Shown here: piece by piece, positions 764-26,104 of the stretch
Position numbering within the stretch: the first letter of the stretch is position 1
Layout of the letters: each line of letters starts with the position of its first letter
Source of the DNA: Actinomycetota bacterium
GTDB taxonomy: Bacteria > Actinomycetota > Acidimicrobiia > IMCC26256 > PALSA-555
Length of the DNA: 35,740 bases
Direction of reading: 5' to 3'
Assembly: GCA_016870595.1 (NCBI GenBank)
Contig: VGBI01000017.1
Span: forward strand, 1-35,740
Notes under the pieces: model-generated
The model's input: the letters and a program-made list of their open reading frames with translations, nothing else
Told to the model about the DNA's origin: nothing
The model's database searches: none
Made by a program: the position numbers and the translations under genes

Positions 764-1972
764 GTGGCGCTGCCCCGCATCATCTCGGTCGACGACCACG
801 TGGTCGAGCCGCCCGACCTGTGGTCGAGTCGACTCCCGGCCGGGCTCCGGGACCGGGGGCCCCGGGTCGTCCGGGAGAAGGCGGCGTTCGGGTTCGCCGG
901 AGGGGTGTTCTCGTTCGAGCGCGACGCACCCGACGGCGACTGGTGCGACATCTGGCTGTACGACGACCTCGTCTACCCGTTCCCGAAGCTGTCGGCGGCC
1001 GTGGGCTTCCCCGACCTCGACAACACGCCGGTGACCTTCGACGAGATCCGGCCCGGGTGCTGGCAGCAGACGGCCCGCCTCGCCGACATGGACGCGAACT
1101 GGACCGACGCCTCCCTGTGCTTCCCGAACGTGCTGCCCCGCTTCGCGGGCCAGGCGTTCCTCGAGCGGCCCGACAAGGAGCTCGCGCTCGCCTGCGTGCG
1201 GGCCTACAACGACTGGATGATCGACGAGTGGTGCGCGGGCGCCGGACGGGGGCGGCTGATCCCGCTGACGATCGTGCCGCTCTGGGATGCGCACCTCGCC
1301 GCGGCCGAGATCCGGCGCTGCGCCGACAAGGGGAGTCACGCGGTCGCCTTCACCGAGAACCCTCAGCCGCTCGGGCTCCCGTCGATCCACGACCGGGACC
1401 GGTTCTGGGACCCGTTCTTCACGGCCTGCGCCGAGACCGACACCGTGGTCAACATGCACATCGGGTCGTCGTCGAAGATGCCCGCGACCTCACCCGACGC
1501 CCCGTTCATCGTGTCGTCGACGCTCACGTTCTCGAACGCGATGGGCTCGTTCTGCGACTTCATCTTCTCGGGCACCCTCGAGCGCTTCCCCGACCTGCGC
1601 ATCGCGTACTCCGAGGGCCAGGTCGGGTGGGCGCCCTACGTGATCGAGCGGGCCGACAAGCTCTGGGCCGAGCGTGGGGCCACCGGGTTCGGCTCCGCGC
1701 TCCCGCACCCGCCGAGCAGCTACGTCGCCGACCGGATCCACTTCTGCCTCTTCGACGACGAGGTCGGGCTCGCCAACCGCGACCGCGTGGGCATGGGCCA
1801 GCTCATGTTCGAGGTCGATTACCCCCACGCCGACAGCACGTTCCCCCACAGTTGCGAGACGGCGGAGCGGATCTGCGACGCGGCCGGACTCGACGAGCGG
1901 GAGCGCTACCTGCTGCTGCGCGGGAACGCGATCCGGGCGTACCGGCTCGACCGCTACGGCATCGACGCCTGA
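764..1972 (+). CDS. Amidohydrolase family metal-dependent hydrolase (amidohydrolase 2 type)
   Basis: A 402-aa TIM-barrel hydrolase or decarboxylase of the amidohydrolase-2 family (Pfam PF04909 type). Visible metal-ligand candidates are the N-terminal SVDDHVVEPPDLW (D10, D11, H12), VNMHIGSSSKMP in the middle, and EVDYPHADSTFPHS near the C-terminus. Relatives act on aromatic acids, cyclic amides and similar carbon sources; the substrate here is unknown. GTG at 764 is chosen over the ATG at 686 because the extra 26 residues look non-coding and CAGCAT sits 6 nt before the GTG. The 3' end overlaps the convergent selenoprotein gene by 19 bp. Confidence 0.85.
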   Translation: MALPRIISVDDHVVEPPDLWSSRLPAGLRDRGPRVVREKAAFGFAGGVFSFERDAPDGDWCDIWLYDDLVYPFPKLSAAVGFPDLDNTPVTFDEIRPGCWQQTARLADMDANWTDASLCFPNVLPRFAGQAFLERPDKELALACVRAYNDWMIDEWCAGAGRGRLIPLTIVPLWDAHLAAAEIRRCADKGSHAVAFTENPQPLGLPSIHDRDRFWDPFFTACAETDTVVNMHIGSSSKMPATSPDAPFIVSSTLTFSNAMGSFCDFIFSGTLERFPDLRIAYSEGQVGWAPYVIERADKLWAERGATGFGSALPHPPSSYVADRIHFCLFDDEVGLANRDRVGMGQLMFEVDYPHADSTFPHSCETAERICDAAGLDERERYLLLRGNAIRAYRLDRYGIDA

Positions 1973-2514
1973 TCGGCGCCGAGCAGACGGTCGCGCACCA
2001 CCGGGGCCAGCGCACCGGCGAGCTCGGCGATCTCGGCCTCGGACCAGGTGGCGGTGGGGATCCAGGGGTAGTCGACGGTGATCATCGGGTAGTCGGGGTG
2101 CCCGCTGATCCGGGCGATCGCCCCGGCCGATTCCCGCAGCTCGTGGTGCACGATGCACACCGTCGGGATCCCCGCCCACTCGAGCTCCACGGCGTCCCGC
2201 AAACTGCGGGCACTGCAGCTCCCTCAGCCGCCGAAGCCGGTGATGGCGACGGTGGCTCCCTCGGTCAACCGGGACCAGTCCCCGGGATCCGGTGGCACCG
2301 AGACCCCGGCCTTCACCACCTTCACCACGCCGGCCAGGTCCACCAGCGTGGCGAGTTCGGCGGCCAGTGCGTCGAGGAAGCGCTCGCTGTGGCCGAGGCC
2401 GTTCACCACGAGGCCGAGGCGGGCCCCGGCGAGCGACGCGGGCCGCTCGGCCAGGCGTCGGGCCCGCGGTGCGGACGGCGGGCCGCCGGTGGGGTCGAGG
2501 GCGACGATGCTCAC
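1954..2514 (-). CDS. UGSC family selenoprotein (in-frame UGA = Sec97)
   Basis: A 186-aa protein if the in-frame TGA at 2226-2224 is read as selenocysteine. The upstream part (GARLGLVVNGLGHSERF, then ATVAITGFGG) and downstream part (GSCSARSLRDAVELEWAG, then IPTVCIVHHE) join in one frame around the TGA, giving the redox motif U-G-S-C at 97-100. A motif of this kind is known from a bacterial selenoprotein family named for it. Coding character is equally strong on both sides of the TGA, and a SECIS-like hairpin follows it, so a pseudogene is unlikely. GTG at 2514 overlaps the upstream partner gene's stop by 4 bp (GTGA), implying translational coupling. The pattern UGxC followed by a helix and AGIPTV also recalls the Sec site of glycine-reductase protein B (inference). 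Conventional gene callers would break this gene in two. Confidence 0.85.
2196..2210 (-). promoter_or_regulatory. SECIS-like hairpin after the UGSC UGA
   Basis: On the minus strand CCCGC (2210-2206) pairs perfectly with GCGGG (2200-2196) around the loop AGTTT (2205-2201). The loop lies 19-23 nt after the UGA, inside the usual window for bacterial SECIS elements, and has a G at its second position. A bulged G followed by GT/AC pairs could lengthen the stem. In bacteria this element lies within the coding sequence and binds SelB. Confidence 0.6.
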
Positions 2515-3557
2515 GGCGTGAGCGTAACCCGCTCCACCGGCCGGGTCACGGCCCACGCGAGGTGGGGGAAGAGAATCCAGGTCTCGGCCATGCCGGCGCC
2601 GCCGGCCCCGACGATCAGGATGTTGGCGGGGGCGCCGAGGTTGACCCAGCGGTCGCGCGGCGCGGCCGTGGGGGCGGTGAGCCGGGGCCAGAGGTACTCC
2701 TGCATCCGCTCCTTCGACCACCCGGCGTCGACGAAGAAGCGCTGGTGCTCCTTGCCCACCACGTACACGACGTTGATGCCGTCGCCGAGGAACGCGTCGC
2801 CCGACATCCCGTGGACACGGGTCTCGGCGACCAGCGAGTCGCACACCCCTTCGGGGGTCCGGCTGGTGGAGTCCCACGCCGAGATCATCCGCATCACCGA
2901 GTGCACGGTGACCGCGCTCTCGTCGGGCGCAAAGCCCCGCTGCACGTGGAGCGGCCGCCAGCCCGGCACGGTCTCGTCCTCGCCGAAGCAGAACGAGTAG
3001 CGCAGCGGCCACGAGAAGGTCGCCCGGTCCAGCCCCCCGGGCACGGCGCGGCAGGCGTTGCGGATCACGAGGCGCAGGGCGCGGCCGATGGACGCGTTGG
3101 CCCGGAAGCCCGGACCCAGGCACCCGGCGCCGGACGCGATGCCGAGCTCCCCGCACACGGGACCGTTGACGATGACCGCGTGGGCGGCGCCCGAGAGGGT
3201 CCCGGTGGTCGAGTGGCAGTTGCCGTGCTCGTCGAGGTGGGCCCGGACCGCCGCGACCACCACCGGGAAGTGCTCGGGGCGGCACCCGGCCATGACCGCG
3301 TTCACCGCCGCGAGCTCGGCGGTCACGGTCACCTCCCGGGTCGGCACGGCGCCGAGGACGGCGTCGGGGGCCAGGCCGACGGTGGCCAGACAGGCGGCCA
3401 CCCGCTCCGGCGTGGCCGGGACCACGGGGAGGCCGTCGGTCCAACCCTGGTCGTGGGCGGCCTCGCGGAACGCCTCCTCGTCGGGCCAGGCGGAGCGGGG
3501 GGTGCCGGACGGCCCGCCGGATGCGGGGGCCGCCGGGGTGGGCGCGGGCGGGACCAT
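2511..3557 (-). CDS. Unrecognised Cys-rich partner protein of the UGSC selenoprotein
   Basis: A 348-aa protein without a domain I can name. It begins with a Pro/Ala-rich stretch, then GWTDGLPVVPATPERV, NAVMAGCRPEHFPVVV, HGNCHSTTGTLSG, GPVCGELGIASGAGCLGPGF, RYSFCFGEDETVPGW, GVCDSLVAETRVHG and a glycine-rich NILIVGAGGAGMAE near the C-terminus. Seven or more cysteines lie in conserved-looking glycine contexts, suggesting thiol chemistry or metal binding. It is the first gene of a two-gene operon with the selenoprotein (GTGA overlap), so the two proteins probably work together. ATG at 3557 is preferred over the ATG at 3593 because TACCGT lies exactly 6 nt upstream. No signal peptide is seen, so it is probably cytoplasmic. 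Function unknown. Confidence 0.8.
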   Translation of the reverse strand: MVPPAPTPAAPASGGPSGTPRSAWPDEEAFREAAHDQGWTDGLPVVPATPERVAACLATVGLAPDAVLGAVPTREVTVTAELAAVNAVMAGCRPEHFPVVVAAVRAHLDEHGNCHSTTGTLSGAAHAVIVNGPVCGELGIASGAGCLGPGFRANASIGRALRLVIRNACRAVPGGLDRATFSWPLRYSFCFGEDETVPGWRPLHVQRGFAPDESAVTVHSVMRMISAWDSTSRTPEGVCDSLVAETRVHGMSGDAFLGDGINVVYVVGKEHQRFFVDAGWSKERMQEYLWPRLTAPTAAPRDRWVNLGAPANILIVGAGGAGMAETWILFPHLAWAVTRPVERVTLTP

Positions 3558-3694: not shown

Positions 3695-4936
3695 GTGACG
3701 AACCTACGAGTGTTCCGATGGGCGGTCGTGGCCCTGATCGTGTTCGGCGTGGTGGTGGTGGCCTGTGGCGGCACCGACGACCCGACCAGCCGCTCGGTGT
3801 CGAACCCTCTCGTGCGCGGTAACGGCGCCACCCCGGCCACGACGCCGCCGGTGGTGATCAAGACGGTCCCGGGCATGCCGCCGGTCGTCGACCCGACCAA
3901 CCTCTACAGCGAGACCACTGCGACCAAGGTGCTCGACTTCGTCCGCGACGACCTTCCGCGGGTGTACGTGCCCAACCGGGCCGAGAACACCGTCTCGGTC
4001 ATCGATCCCAACACCATGCAGGTCATCGACAAGTTCCCGGTCGGGATCAACCCGCAGCACATCGTGCCCTCGTGGGACATGAAGACGCTGTGGGTCACCA
4101 ACACCGCCGAAGGGCGCACCGACGGCAGCCTCACGCCGATCGACCCCCAGACCGGCAAGCGGTCCGGGCCCGACGTCCCCGTCGACGACCCCTACAACAT
4201 GTACTTCTCGCCCGACGGGAAGTCGGCCATCGTGGTCGCCGAGGCGTACAAGCGCCTCGACTTCCGCGACCCGAAGACCATGGCGCTGCAGAAGTCGGTC
4301 GAGACGCCGAACTGCGGTGGCGTGAATCACGGCGAGTTCGCCATCGACGGCACCTGGGCGATCTTCACCTGCGAGTTCGCCGGGGCGCTGGTCAAGATCG
4401 ACATGACCACCGGGCAGGTCGTCTCGTACCTCCAGCTCACCGGGGGCGGGATGCCCCAGGACATCCGTCTGTCGCCCGACGGGACGATGCTCTACGTCGC
4501 CGAGATGGTGCGCAGCGGCGTGTACCTCGTCGACCCGGTGACCTTCACCGAGAAGGGGTTCATCCCGACCGGCACCGGGGCCCACGGGCTGTACCCGAGC
4601 CGTGACGCCTCGGTGCTCTACGTCGCCAACCGCGGGTCGACCCGCATCGGCGGCCCCCCCAACGGGCAGGGGAGCGTCTCGGTGCTCGACTGGCGCAACG
4701 GCAACAAGATCGTGGCCACCTGGCCCACTCCCGGGGGCGGGAGCCCCGACATGGGCGGGGTCAGCGCCGACGGCACCAAGCTCTGGCTCGCCGGGCGCTA
4801 CGACAACGAGGTCTACGCCATCGACACCCGGACGGGGGAGTACGCCGTGATCCCCGTGGGTCGCGAGCCCCACGGCCTCGCCGTGTGGCCCCAGCCCGGG
4901 CGGTACTCCCTCGGGCACACCGCGAACATGCGGTGA
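3695..4936 (+). CDS. YVTN-type beta-propeller lipoprotein
   Basis: A 413-aa secreted repeat protein. The N-terminus (TNLRVFRWAVVALIVFG, then VVVVACGG) is a signal peptide with a lipobox-like VVAC, so it is probably a lipoprotein. The rest is a run of YVTN/NHL-like blades: PRVYVPNRAENTVSVIDP, TLWVTNTAEG, MYFSPDGKSAIVV, DIRLSPDGTMLYVAEMV, VLYVANRGSTR, GVSADGTKLWLAGRYDNEVY. Such propellers serve as binding scaffolds or as enzymes with small active sites; no active site is evident here. GTG at 3695 is chosen because it begins the signal peptide and follows GAGGATCCG. The zinc-ribbon gene starts 3 nt after the stop. Confidence 0.85.
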   Translation: MTNLRVFRWAVVALIVFGVVVVACGGTDDPTSRSVSNPLVRGNGATPATTPPVVIKTVPGMPPVVDPTNLYSETTATKVLDFVRDDLPRVYVPNRAENTVSVIDPNTMQVIDKFPVGINPQHIVPSWDMKTLWVTNTAEGRTDGSLTPIDPQTGKRSGPDVPVDDPYNMYFSPDGKSAIVVAEAYKRLDFRDPKTMALQKSVETPNCGGVNHGEFAIDGTWAIFTCEFAGALVKIDMTTGQVVSYLQLTGGGMPQDIRLSPDGTMLYVAEMVRSGVYLVDPVTFTEKGFIPTGTGAHGLYPSRDASVLYVANRGSTRIGGPPNGQGSVSVLDWRNGNKIVATWPTPGGGSPDMGGVSADGTKLWLAGRYDNEVYAIDTRTGEYAVIPVGREPHGLAVWPQPGRYSLGHTANMR

Positions 4937-4939
4937 TCC

Positions 4940-5155
4940 ATGGCCCCCGTGACCGACGCCGACGACCTCGCCCCCCGGGACTGGGACTGCCTCCGGTGCG
5001 GGCGGATCGAGCCCATGGTGTTCCGGGGCCTGTGCGGTGGGTGCCGTGACGCGGTCCGGACCGGGGCCCGGCGTGAGCGCCGGGACGTGGCCGTGGCCGA
5101 CTACGAGCCCAAGATGAACGTGACCCCGAACGCGGTGGCACTCAAGGACGACTGA
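4940..5155 (+). CDS. Small zinc-ribbon-like protein
   Basis: A 71-aa protein with two CxxC pairs, C17/C20 and C32/C35, in the arrangement CLRCG-x10-LCGGC, as in a small treble-clef or rubredoxin-like zinc ribbon. The following region is Arg-rich, which could allow nucleic-acid or protein contact. It starts 3 nt after the beta-propeller gene and is probably co-transcribed, though the products would sit in different compartments. Function unknown. Its stop codon lies at the edge of an inverted repeat that may be a terminator. Confidence 0.6.
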   Translation: MAPVTDADDLAPRDWDCLRCGRIEPMVFRGLCGGCRDAVRTGARRERRDVAVADYEPKMNVTPNAVALKDD

Positions 5156-21677: not shown

Positions 21678-22532
21678 TCACGGGTGCACGTGGCCGGCGC
21701 CGAACCGGCCCTTGATGCACAGGTTGCCGGCGGTCACGCTGCTCGAATGGGGTGACGTGACCTTCACGATCCGGTCGCCGTCGTCGTCGCCCACCCCGTG
21801 CTGCACGTGGAGGGTGAGCGTGCAGCCCACGCCGCAGAACGCGCAGATCGTGTCGGTGCGGGTCTGACGCTCGGACGCCCAGGTGCCCATCGTTCGGAGG
21901 TCGAACTCGGTGCGGAACATCAGGGCGTCGGTGGGGCAGACCTCGATGCAGTTCCCGCAGTAGACGCAGGCGGAGTCGGGGAGGCCGACCCCGTGCTCGG
22001 TCGACACGGTGGCGTCGAAGCCCCGGCCGGCGATGGCGATGGCGAAGGTGTGCTGCCACTGCTCGCCGCAGGCGTCGGTGCACTGGTAGCACAGGATGCA
22101 GCGCGAGTAGTCGCGCACGAAGCAGTCGTTGTCGACCTTCACCGGTTGGGCCACGGTCGCGGCGTCGGGGCCGAAGCGGTCGGGGTCGGCGCCGTAGCGC
22201 GCGTTCCACTCCTCGACGTGATCGGTGAGCGAGAGGTCGACGCTGCTGCCGAGCAGCTCGAGCACCATGCGCCGGGCGTGGCGGACCCGGGGGGTGTCGG
22301 TGGCGATCTCCATGCCGGGCTCGGCCGGTCGGGAGCACGACGGCACCAGGGCCCGGCTCCCCGCGACGTCGACCACGCAGATCCGACAGACGTTCCGGGC
22401 GGCGACGGTGTCGCCGAAGCACAGCGTCGGGGTGTCGATCCCGGCTGCGGTGCACGCGTCGAGCACGGTGGCGCCCTCGGGCACCACGACGGGCCGACCG
22501 TCGACGGTCACCGCCACCTCGTGACCGCTCAC
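21678..22532 (-). CDS. Formate dehydrogenase iron-sulfur subunit carrying the split-off N-terminal [4Fe-4S] part of the catalytic chain
   Basis: A 284-aa electron-transfer protein, last gene of the operon. Residues 1-80 are a NuoG/HoxU-like [2Fe-2S] ferredoxin domain with C38, C49, C52 and C66. The middle has two [4Fe-4S] motifs (CILCYQCTDAC and CVYCGNCIEVCP). The C-terminal 60 residues, CAFCGVGCTLTLHVQHG and then LCIKGRFGAGHVHP, are the N-terminal cluster-binding subdomain normally found in the molybdopterin catalytic subunit. That subdomain includes the lysine that links cluster and cofactor. The chain stops exactly where the catalytic protein continues (DRTHARLTTPLV) in the first gene. GTG at 22532 overlaps the previous stop (GTGA). 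Confidence 0.85.
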   Translation of the reverse strand: MSGHEVAVTVDGRPVVVPEGATVLDACTAAGIDTPTLCFGDTVAARNVCRICVVDVAGSRALVPSCSRPAEPGMEIATDTPRVRHARRMVLELLGSSVDLSLTDHVEEWNARYGADPDRFGPDAATVAQPVKVDNDCFVRDYSRCILCYQCTDACGEQWQHTFAIAIAGRGFDATVSTEHGVGLPDSACVYCGNCIEVCPTDALMFRTEFDLRTMGTWASERQTRTDTICAFCGVGCTLTLHVQHGVGDDDGDRIVKVTSPHSSSVTAGNLCIKGRFGAGHVHP

Positions 22533-24151
22533 GTGGATGCCCCGAACACGCCGAACCGGTCGACGGCGCCCTCGATCGCGTTCCAGGCGAACTGGCCGAG
22601 CCCGCAGATCGACGCGTCGCGCATGGCGGCGCCGACGTCGCGCAGGCGCTGGACCTCCTCGGCCACCGACCCGAGGGGGCGACCGTGCACGAGTCGGTGG
22701 AGGACCTCCTCCTGGCGCACCGTGCCGACCCGGCAGGGCACGCACTGCCCGCACGACTCCTCGCGGAAGAACGTGGCGATCCCGAGCACGACGGTGGCGA
22801 GGTCGGTGGTGTCGTCGATCACGAACACCGCCCCCGAGCCCACGGTGGCGCCGATCGCCCGGGTGGCCTCGACCGTCAGGGGGACCCCGATCTCCTCGGG
22901 GTGCAGGAAGGTCCCGGCCGCACCGCCGAGCAGTACGGCCTGGAGCGTGCGTCCGGCGGGCACGCCCCCGGCGAGGTCGAGCACCTCGGCCAGCGTGGTC
23001 CCCATCGGCACCTCGTAGAGGCCGGGGCGGGTCACCGCACCGGACACCGAGAAGAGCTTGGTCTCGGGCCGGGGACCGGACGGGTCGAGGATCGTGAGCA
23101 CGTTGGCCAGCGTCTCCACGTTGTGGACCAGCGTGGGCCGCCCGAACAGACCGGCGTCCACGGGGAACGGCGGCTTGGTGCGGGGCTCGCCCCGGTAGCC
23201 CTCGATCGACGCGAACAGCGCGGTCTCCTCGCCGCACACGTAGGCACCGGCCCCGCGGCGCACCTCGATGCGGAAGGGCACGCCCAGGCCGCCGGCGTCG
23301 TCGCCCAGCAGCCCGGCGGCCCCGGCCGCGTCGATCGCGTGCTCGAGTCGGGCGATGGCCTCGGGGTACTCGTCGCGCACGTAGACGTACCCGGTCGTCG
23401 CGCCGACGGCGAACCCGGCGATGACCATGGCCTCGACCACGGCGAACGGATCGTGCTCGAGGACCACCCGGTCCTTGAACGTGCCCGGCTCCGACTCGTC
23501 GGCGTTCGCGACGACGTACTTCGGCCCGCCCGCCGCGGCGGCGACCGCCTCCCACTTGCGCCCCGCCGGGAACGCGGCGCCGCCACGACCGGTGAGACCG
23601 GAGGCGGTGACGGCGGCCCGGACCGCAGCCGGGCCCAGGGTCCGGGCGTGGCCGAGCGCCGCGGTGCCACCGTGGGCCCGGTAGTCGTCGAGCGACGACG
23701 GGTCGACCACGCCGACCCTTCGGAGGAGGGACCGCTCGGTGGGCGGCTGGGGCACGGGCGCCGGCGCGACCGGAGCCACGGCGCGCCCGCCGTCGGTGTC
23801 GAGCACCGCCGGGGCCTGCTCGCAGCGGCCCAGGCACGGCGACGCGACGACGCCGGGGGCGTCGGCACCGGGAGCCTCGGCACCCGCGACCACGCACATG
23901 ACGCCGGTGCACACGCGCCGCAGCCGCCGGGGTCGGGGCGTGAACGCGAACGACGCGTACGACGACGCCACGCCGAACACCTCGGCCCGTCCGAGCCTGA
24001 GCCGGTCGGCGATGGCGTCGAGCGCCTCGGGGGCGAGCCACCCGGCGGCGTCGTGCGCCTCGTGCAGCGCCGGCAGCAGCGCGTCGCGCCGCGGCCGGGT
24101 GACCGGCGGGCCCACCGGGAGCGCGACCGGGACCGGCCGGGGGTCGGTCAC
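22529..24151 (-). CDS. NAD-linked formate dehydrogenase flavoprotein subunit (NuoE-NuoF fusion)
   Basis: A 540-aa diaphorase subunit that passes electrons from the Fe-S chain to NAD+. Residues 1-130 are a short NuoE-like [2Fe-2S] domain with cysteines in CTGVMC and CLGRC. The NuoF-like part follows: GLTGRGGAAFPAGRKWEA and NADESEPGTFKDRVVLEHDP bind FMN and NADH, GAYVCGEETALFASIEG is conserved, and EESCGQCVPCRVGT plus DASICGLGQFA hold a [4Fe-4S] cluster. NuoE/NuoF fusions are known in soluble NAD-dependent formate dehydrogenases. The GTG at 24151 overlaps the catalytic gene's stop (GTGA), and the stop overlaps the next start, so the operon is tightly coupled. Confidence 0.88.
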   Translation of the reverse strand: MTDPRPVPVALPVGPPVTRPRRDALLPALHEAHDAAGWLAPEALDAIADRLRLGRAEVFGVASSYASFAFTPRPRRLRRVCTGVMCVVAGAEAPGADAPGVVASPCLGRCEQAPAVLDTDGGRAVAPVAPAPVPQPPTERSLLRRVGVVDPSSLDDYRAHGGTAALGHARTLGPAAVRAAVTASGLTGRGGAAFPAGRKWEAVAAAAGGPKYVVANADESEPGTFKDRVVLEHDPFAVVEAMVIAGFAVGATTGYVYVRDEYPEAIARLEHAIDAAGAAGLLGDDAGGLGVPFRIEVRRGAGAYVCGEETALFASIEGYRGEPRTKPPFPVDAGLFGRPTLVHNVETLANVLTILDPSGPRPETKLFSVSGAVTRPGLYEVPMGTTLAEVLDLAGGVPAGRTLQAVLLGGAAGTFLHPEEIGVPLTVEATRAIGATVGSGAVFVIDDTTDLATVVLGIATFFREESCGQCVPCRVGTVRQEEVLHRLVHGRPLGSVAEEVQRLRDVGAAMRDASICGLGQFAWNAIEGAVDRFGVFGAST

Positions 24152-26085
24152 GGTGCGGGCGTCCCGCCGCGTGCGCCGACCGGGGCGGCGATCCGCTCGA
24201 TCCGCACGGCGGTCGCCTTGAACTCGGCGGTACCCGACTTCGGGTCGACCGCCTCGACCGTGAGGCGGTTGGTGTCGACGTCGTCGCCGAAGTGGAGGGT
24301 CATGAACGCGAGACCCGCCCGCAGCCCGGGGTCGATGCGCACCGGGGCCTCCACGCTGCCGCGCCGGGACACGACCCGGACGGTCTCGCCCGGCGCGACC
24401 CCGAGGTCGGCGGCGTCGGCCGGGGAGAGGTCGACGGTCTCGCCGAACCGCAGCGGCGACGAGAAGCGCCGGGTCTGGACCCCGGTGTTGTAGGAGTCGA
24501 GCCGGCGCCCCGTCGTCAGGCGGATGGGGTAGTCGGGGGCGAGGGGATCGGCGGGTGGGACCCACTCCACCACCGAGAACGGTGCGGGGCGACCCCGGTC
24601 GGCGGGGTCGTCGGCCCAGAGGCGCCCGTGCAGGAACGAGGGCTCGAGGTCGGTCTCCGACGGGCACGGCCACTGGATGCCCCCGAGCGCCTCGATCCGG
24701 GCCCAGCCCATGCCGGTGTGGAGCGGCGAGACCCGCCGCAGCTCGTCCCACATCGTCTCGGGGTCGGCCGGGCCGAGGTCGGCGCCGAGGCGGTCGGCGA
24801 CCGCGACGAGGATCGCGAGGTCGTCGCGGGCCCCCTCGGGTGCGCGGACCGCGGCCCGCACCCGCTGCACGCGCCGCTCGGAGTTGGTGACCGTGCCGTT
24901 CGACTCGCACCACGCCGCGGTCGCCGGGAGCACGACGTCGGCCAGCTCGGCCGTGCGGGTGAGGTAGAGGTCCTGGACCACGAGGTGGTCGAGCCCGGCG
25001 AGGAGCCGTCGGGCCCGGGTGGCGTCGGCCTCCGACTGCGCCGGGTTCTCGCCGAGCACGTAGAGCGCCCGCAGGTCGCCGGTCTCCATGGCCGCGAACA
25101 TCTCGGTCAGGTTGCGGCCGTCCTCGGGCGGCACCGGCGCGCCCCAGACGGCCTCCACGCGGGCCCGGGCGTCCGGGTCGGTCACGGCCTGGAAGCCGGG
25201 CAGGCGGTTGGGCAGGGCGCCCATGTCGCCGCCGCCCTGGACGTTGTTCTGGCCCCGCAGCGGGCTCAGGCCCGAGCCCCACCGGCCGACGTGTCCGCAG
25301 AGCAGGGCCAGGTTGCACAGGGCGAGCACGTTGTCGACGCCGCTGCGGTGCTCGGTGATGCCGAGGGTCCAGCACAGCTGCGCCTTCGGCGCGGTCGCGT
25401 AGGCCCGCGCCGCGGCCCGCACCAGGTCGGCGGGCACGCCCGTGCGCGCCTCCGCCCGCTCGGGGGTCCAGTCGGCGACCTGGGCGGCGAACTCGGCGTA
25501 CCCGGTGGTGGCCCGGGCGACGAACTCCTCGTGCACGAGGCCCGCGGCGATGATCTCGTGCGCGATCGCGTGGGCGAGGGGGATGTCGGCGCCGACGTCG
25601 ATCGGCAGCCAGAGGTCGGCGAACTCGGCGGTCGCGGTGCGCCGGGGGTCCACCACGATCAGGCGGGCCCCGGCCCGGACCGCCCGCAGGACGCGGTGGA
25701 AGAAGATCGGGTGGGTCTCACGCGCGTTGGAGCCCCAGAGGACGACGACGTCGGCCTCCTCGACCTCCCGATAGCTGCTGGTGCCGCCCCCGGCCCCGAA
25801 GACCGTCGCCAGACCGACGACGCTGGGTGCGTGTCAGGTGCGGTTGCAGGAATCGATGTTGTTGGTGCCCACCGCCAGGCGCATGAACTTCTGGGCGGTG
25901 TAGTTCACCTCGTTGGTCGCCTTGGAGCACGAGAACATGCCCACCGAGTCGGCGCCGTGGTGGTCGCGGGCCGCCCCGAACCCGGCCGCGGCGCGGTCGA
26001 GGGCGACGTCCCACGACGCCGGCACCAGCCGGTCGGCGTCGCGGACCAGTGGCGTGGTCAGTCGGGCGTGGGTCCGGTCGGACAC
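24148..26085 (-). CDS. Formate dehydrogenase catalytic subunit, selenocysteine-containing (Sec84)
   Basis: A 645-aa Mo/W-bis-MGD subunit that oxidises formate to CO2. The active site reads NNIDSCNRT-U-HAPSVVGLA, where U is the in-frame TGA at 25836-25834. The neighbouring histidine is also conserved. Cofactor segments follow: VVLWGSNARETHPIFFHRV, LIVVDPRRTATAEFADLWL, MGALPNRLPG and LYVLGENPAQSEADATR. The C-terminal domain (RLTTGRRLDSYNTGVQTRRF, cut here as TTGRRLDSYNTGVQT) is complete. The usual N-terminal [4Fe-4S] subdomain is missing and occurs at the end of the third gene. GTG at 26085 is chosen because GGAGG lies 5 nt upstream; GTG 26091 is an alternative (Sec86). It would be split by standard gene callers. 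Confidence 0.9.
25804..25819 (-). promoter_or_regulatory. SECIS element in the formate dehydrogenase gene
   Basis: On the minus strand CGTCG (25819-25815) pairs with CGACG (25808-25804) around the loop GTCTGG. The string GGTCT falls 19-23 nt after the UGA. From memory, the E. coli fdhF SECIS has GGUCU at this same distance. A SelB-binding hairpin is therefore well supported. Confidence 0.75.
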
Positions 26086-26104
26086 GGGCACCTCCAGGGG
26101 TCGT

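Follow-up and report, generated by a model that had tools for sequence, protein, structure and literature searches.

Glycine reductase and D-proline reductase cleave bonds in their substrates reductively, and this chemistry is the model for what we propose here for the UGSC proteins. GrdB and PrdB (PF07355) are the selenocysteine (Sec) subunits of the glycine, sarcosine, betaine and D-proline reductases, which are two-subunit enzymes. Another group of selenoproteins, the 'UGSC-containing proteins' (PF24696/NF041046), was described by Zhang and Gladyshev in 2008 (PMC2398784). That survey ranks UGSC first in frequency among the families in non-marine samples and notes its fusion to an unnamed domain, 'Unknown_1'.

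A UGSC-family gene and its coupled partner

The window, by which we mean the whole 35,740-nucleotide stretch of DNA analysed here, carries on its minus strand a UGSC-family selenoprotein gene (1954..2514) that runs from a GTG start at 2514 to a TAG stop at 1956-1954 and encodes 186 amino acids, provided that a single in-frame TGA (2224..2226, minus strand; Sec97), directly followed by codons for G-S-C, is read through. The sequence-only reading of this DNA had proposed this frame and its membership in the UGSC family. Both hold, as the joined 186-residue product scores 139.7 bits against Pfam PF24696, for which the gathering score is 25 bits, with a match that covers both sides of the TGA. The Cys of the UGSC motif (Cys100; 2215..2217, minus strand), which we propose as a resolving thiol, is invariant in 37 homologues. 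Since the product reaches 80 bits on the NCBIfam equivalog NF041046, where the curated cut-off is 125, we regard it as a divergent member or subfamily; a UGSC paralogue in the same genome (G000:C14) passes this model with 154.6 bits. Compared with the family as the 2008 survey presents it, the window protein is alike in sequence family, UGSC motif, exchange of Sec and Cys, and occurrence in aquatic bacteria, and differs in being part of a divergent subfamily that falls short of the NF041046 cut-off. Sec-containing orthologues at 61-85% identity were found at four loci (L020-L023).

The gene is translationally coupled, through an exact GTGA overlap of the kind the earlier reading had described, to a 348-residue open reading frame of an unnamed family (2511..3557, minus strand). 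That reading had also called this partner Cys-rich, which is true of the window copy, with eight Cys (positions 56, 92, 114, 135, 146, 169, 190 and 239), but does not extend to the family: only Cys92 (motif AGCRPE; 3282..3284, minus strand; kept in 34/35 homologues) and Cys190 (SFCFxE; 2988..2990, minus strand; 35/35) are conserved family-wide, so that Cys-richness is mostly a trait of the window's clade.

The pair is flanked by a convergent amidohydrolase gene (1-1972), the 3′ end of which shares 19 nt with the UGSC gene, and by a divergent segment (3710-5155) encoding a YNCE-like beta-propeller and a small protein. The same flanking genes occur elsewhere in the window's clade (L020, L021, L080, L091), an LLM monooxygenase lies beyond them, and all flankers except the monooxygenase are on the strand opposite the pair. 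When neighbourhoods were clustered, LLM monooxygenase, SDR, amidohydrolase and acyl-CoA ligase genes recurred. We draw no substrate from these neighbours because most of them are encoded on the opposite strand and their recurrence is a raw count, and none of the genes near the pair names a substrate.

The Sec codon and its SECIS hairpin

We collected 76 UGSC genes and typed the codon at the Sec site in 75 of them, leaving outside the typing one gene with a UGAC motif that also has UGA (L085). Among the 75, the codon is UGA in 61 and Cys in 14 (10 TGC, 4 TGT), with nothing else. Neither other sense codons nor decay past the site, which the sequence-only reading had considered as contrary outcomes, was found, and the C-terminal half of the protein is conserved. 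UGA at the same site recurs in independent assemblies and across phyla (L020-L023; 61 genes).

A hairpin with its loop 19-23 nt past the UGA had been noted from the sequence alone. It is present as CCCGCA-GUU-UGCGGG (apical part at 2196..2210, minus strand), with the loop G 20 nt past the UGA, and homologues carry it in the same register. Folding 54 nt of the window sequence by itself gave z = -1.34, which is not significant, and we therefore turned to covariation across species. With the U of UGA as position 1, the stem comprises pairs 17-31 to 22-26. This 6-bp stem is fully paired in the same register in 54/61 UGA genes versus 1/14 Cys genes, and AGT serves as the Ser codon of the loop in 54/61 versus 0/14 (p = 2e-10), counts that take in related sequences and are not independent events. 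The UGA genes show compensatory changes at three stem pairs, and 53 of them have GUG or GUU as the loop. Only 2.9% of the window's Ser codons are AGT, and the window's clade also uses TTG, likewise rare at 1.7% of Leu codons. A SECIS element is defined by a hairpin shortly downstream of the UGA whose apical loop contains a G, and the window gene has both features. Since the hairpin, its compensatory changes and the rare AGT codon all go with the UGA genes, the element is under selection, and the comparison of sequences shows that the UGA is recoded as Sec through it.

The host genome (2.7 Mb, 93% complete) contains the corresponding machinery, with every component above its cut-off: selA (C1:30546-31844, 459 bits), which adjoins selB (C1:29484-30512, 281 bits), a tRNA-Sec gene (C1:55860-55951, 73.6 bits) and selD (C115, 403 bits). 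The selB and selC functions, whose absence would have spoken against Sec in the earlier reading, are thus both represented. There are three UGSC genes in this genome, each with exactly one in-frame TGA. Across the first 119 genomes of the class, taking the UGSC genes listed for them, selB is above the cut-off in 34/35 genomes with a UGA-type UGSC gene (the exception being G056) and in 1/5 of those with Cys-type genes only.

The window holds a second selenoprotein gene, for a formate dehydrogenase alpha subunit (24148-26100, minus strand), whose open reading frame is cut in two by a TGA (25836-25834) within the canonical Sec motif NRTUHAPSV; a gene for a NuoF-like subunit (22529-24151) adjoins it. 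If the TGA of the UGSC gene were instead a true stop or a sequencing error, the downstream part would be a decaying remnant. We consider this vanishingly improbable given the identical-site UGA across phyla, the compensatory stem changes, the conserved C-terminal half and the canonical Sec formate dehydrogenase in the same window.

A partner inherited with UGSC

The partner has no relative in Pfam, NCBIfam or the PDB, whether searched singly or as a 34-row profile. In 247 genomes of the same class, compared as lists, UGSC and the partner were each found in 88, and 85 genomes have both. The two copy numbers agree genome by genome (e.g. 3/3, 5/5, 7/7 and 8/8), and a genome can have as many as eight paralogous pairs. 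The partner adjoins UGSC in 74/76 loci, upstream or downstream depending on the clade; of the other two loci, one lies at the end of a contig, and in the second the partner is 3.7 kb away. Distances in the two families correlate at r = 0.95 in a mirror-tree comparison, a value to which shared phylogeny contributes. Co-occurrence of the two genes, which the earlier reading had offered as a check, is therefore almost without exception, and these comparisons establish, at the level of sequence, that UGSC and its partner are inherited as a unit.

Single-chain fusions of UGSC and partner occur at two loci (L083, L085). Three further candidates in which the two share a frame (L069, L092, L093) were rejected as fusions because the partner's own TGA stop separates the two, and four others (L027, L036, L073, L078) were also left out of the count. 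Partner-type genes without an adjacent UGSC gene of their own were seen at L045, L095 and L111. Scans of IMG/VR with the UGSC and partner profiles gave no matches. An AF2 model of the partner, built from a 5-row alignment, had a pLDDT of 40.6 and was unusable, so that its role is deduced from linkage only. The domain called 'Unknown_1' in PMC2398784 may be this partner.

In 34 partners, all from the largest clade, an N-terminal domain of ∼120 residues carries CxTC and VPT followed by RPGCGS. CxTC (with CPAC as a rare variant) and RPGCGS are invariant in these proteins. The profile of this domain matches PDB thioredoxins with E = 2.5e-6 and the CxxC motifs aligned, and most partners of this main clade share with thioredoxin a CxxC and a cis-Pro motif. 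The window partner, unlike them, has no such domain, and neither does the partner of the main clade that the same genome encodes (L066). In four genomes of one family the Cys of RPGCGS is encoded by TGA, giving PGUGS (L075:5616-7052; L106:3908-5341; also L107 and L108). A hairpin with the loop CGGGC at +20 follows in 4/4 of these genes and is absent from the Cys homologues tested. Because an otherwise invariant Cys is here encoded by UGA with a hairpin of its own, the partner in that one family is a candidate selenoprotein too, and no NCBIfam model describes it. The sequence-only reading had taken the two coupled proteins for a redox pair, a suggestion that gains support from the fusion of the thioredoxin-like domain, the UGSC-partner fusions and the putative second Sec.

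Relationship to GrdB and PrdB

A 74-row UGSC profile aligned with a profile of 12 GrdB/PrdB proteins from the same class at E = 3.1e-7 and 93% probability (score 54), placing Sec on Sec with the UxxC site aligned. By comparison, none of 60 column shuffles scored above 15, and the scores of the thioredoxin domain and the partner were 19 and 13, respectively. On the side of NCBIfam, the only other models matched by the paralogue at L066 were GrdB and the sarcosine-type GrdF, both weakly. By these profile comparisons, UGSC is a remote homologue of the Sec-bearing domain of GrdB/PrdB, with which it shares the Sec position. The two differ in other respects: PF07355 did not match the window UGSC or the related UGSC members searched, the host genome has no homologue of the GrdE/PrdA pyruvoyl proprotein (PF09338), and the partner profile showed no relationship to the GrdE and GrdB profiles. 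The last result led us to reject a PrdA-like pyruvoyl protein as the identity of the partner. For these reasons UGSC is not a member of the GrdB/PrdB family, although by analogy it probably works like one.

GrdB-like genes (UGTxTRxG) and short PrdB-like genes (UPxC) with an in-frame TGA also occur in the class (L054, L055, L056, L057-L065), and the host genome has a short PrdB-like match of its own (G000:C6:55304-55729).

An AF2 model of UGSC (pLDDT 79, the single confident model out of five) predicts a parallel alpha/beta, Rossmann-like fold in which a helix begins at Sec97. Foldseek returned flavodoxin-, azoreductase-, CheY- and TIR-like folds with a query-normalised TM below 0.5, and since these are generic alpha/beta folds at low TM we draw no function from them. 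The predicted Rossmann/flavodoxin-like picture does argue against the Trx-like fold suggested in 2008.

Discussion

We give slightly better than an even chance to the explanation that the coupled genes each supply one half of a single Sec-dependent reductase, which would receive its electrons from thioredoxin and act on a small organic substrate. The partner would bind this substrate and supply the rest of the active site, and the selenolate of Sec97 would attack it, leading to reductive cleavage of a C-N or other C-heteroatom bond. Cys100 could then resolve the intermediate as an Se-S bond, which a thioredoxin-like dithiol would reduce again. Where thioredoxin is fused to the partner, as in the largest clade, electrons may pass through the thiol or selenol of the conserved PGC(U)GS motif; the window's clade, whose partner has no fused domain, would need a thioredoxin that acts in trans. 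This explanation draws support from the UGSC match, the Sec machinery, the SECIS covariation, the linkage to the partner, the thioredoxin-like domain and PGUGS variant of some partners and the profile match to GrdB/PrdB, and it is weakened by the remoteness of that last link, by a partner unlike GrdE or GrdB, by the lack of a GrdE/PrdA homologue in the host genome, by neighbours that do not name a substrate and by a window partner that has no thioredoxin domain.

An alternative is a generic thiol/selenol oxidoreductase pair that would serve in peroxide, disulfide or methionine-sulfoxide defence and have no dedicated organic substrate. The UxxC motif is a classic of redox proteins, many species have a partner with a fused thioredoxin-like domain, and PMC2398784 places UGSC among Trx-fold proteins ('likely Trx-like fold'). 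We nevertheless think such a role unlikely, since the fold predicted for UGSC resembles azoreductase, CheY-like and TIR proteins and not thioredoxin, since the profile comparison gives UGSC a higher score with GrdB/PrdB than with the thioredoxin domain (54 versus 19), and since up to eight pairs in a genome suggest different substrates and not one defence role. A different division of labour seems distinctly improbable. Here catalysis would belong to the partner, which might be a hydrolase or bind a cofactor, and UGSC would only serve it as a dedicated reductant or as a donor of selenium or sulfur, for instance in Fe-S or persulfide handling. This arrangement would fit the glycine-rich conserved motifs and conserved Cys of the partner, as well as a NifU-like protein of ∼90 residues (e.g. 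L102:7885-8160) that is encoded at 10 of the neighbourhood loci, in many cases adjoining the pair, but no such gene lies beside the pair of the window or those of most UGA-containing clades, and the Sec domain of UGSC resembles that of the catalytic GrdB/PrdB.

The two-protein reductase can be taken further, to a new class of Sec-dependent substrate reductases in which a GrdB/PrdB-like Sec domain works with a new catalytic subunit in place of GrdE/PrdA, with its own fused thioredoxin, in up to eight pairs per genome, and in which the PGUGS partner would be a new selenoprotein family in one lineage. We put this forward tentatively, and as a whole it is somewhat doubtful. A search of the literature, including the accessible portions of the 2008 survey, found no mention of the obligate partner, of its thioredoxin and PGUGS variants or of a relationship to GrdB/PrdB, and the latter also goes beyond the sequence-only reading of this locus. 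For annotation, the partner is a new protein family. UGSC has been without an assigned function since 2008, and the obligate partner, its thioredoxin and Sec variants and the link to GrdB/PrdB together turn this orphan into a testable enzyme hypothesis.
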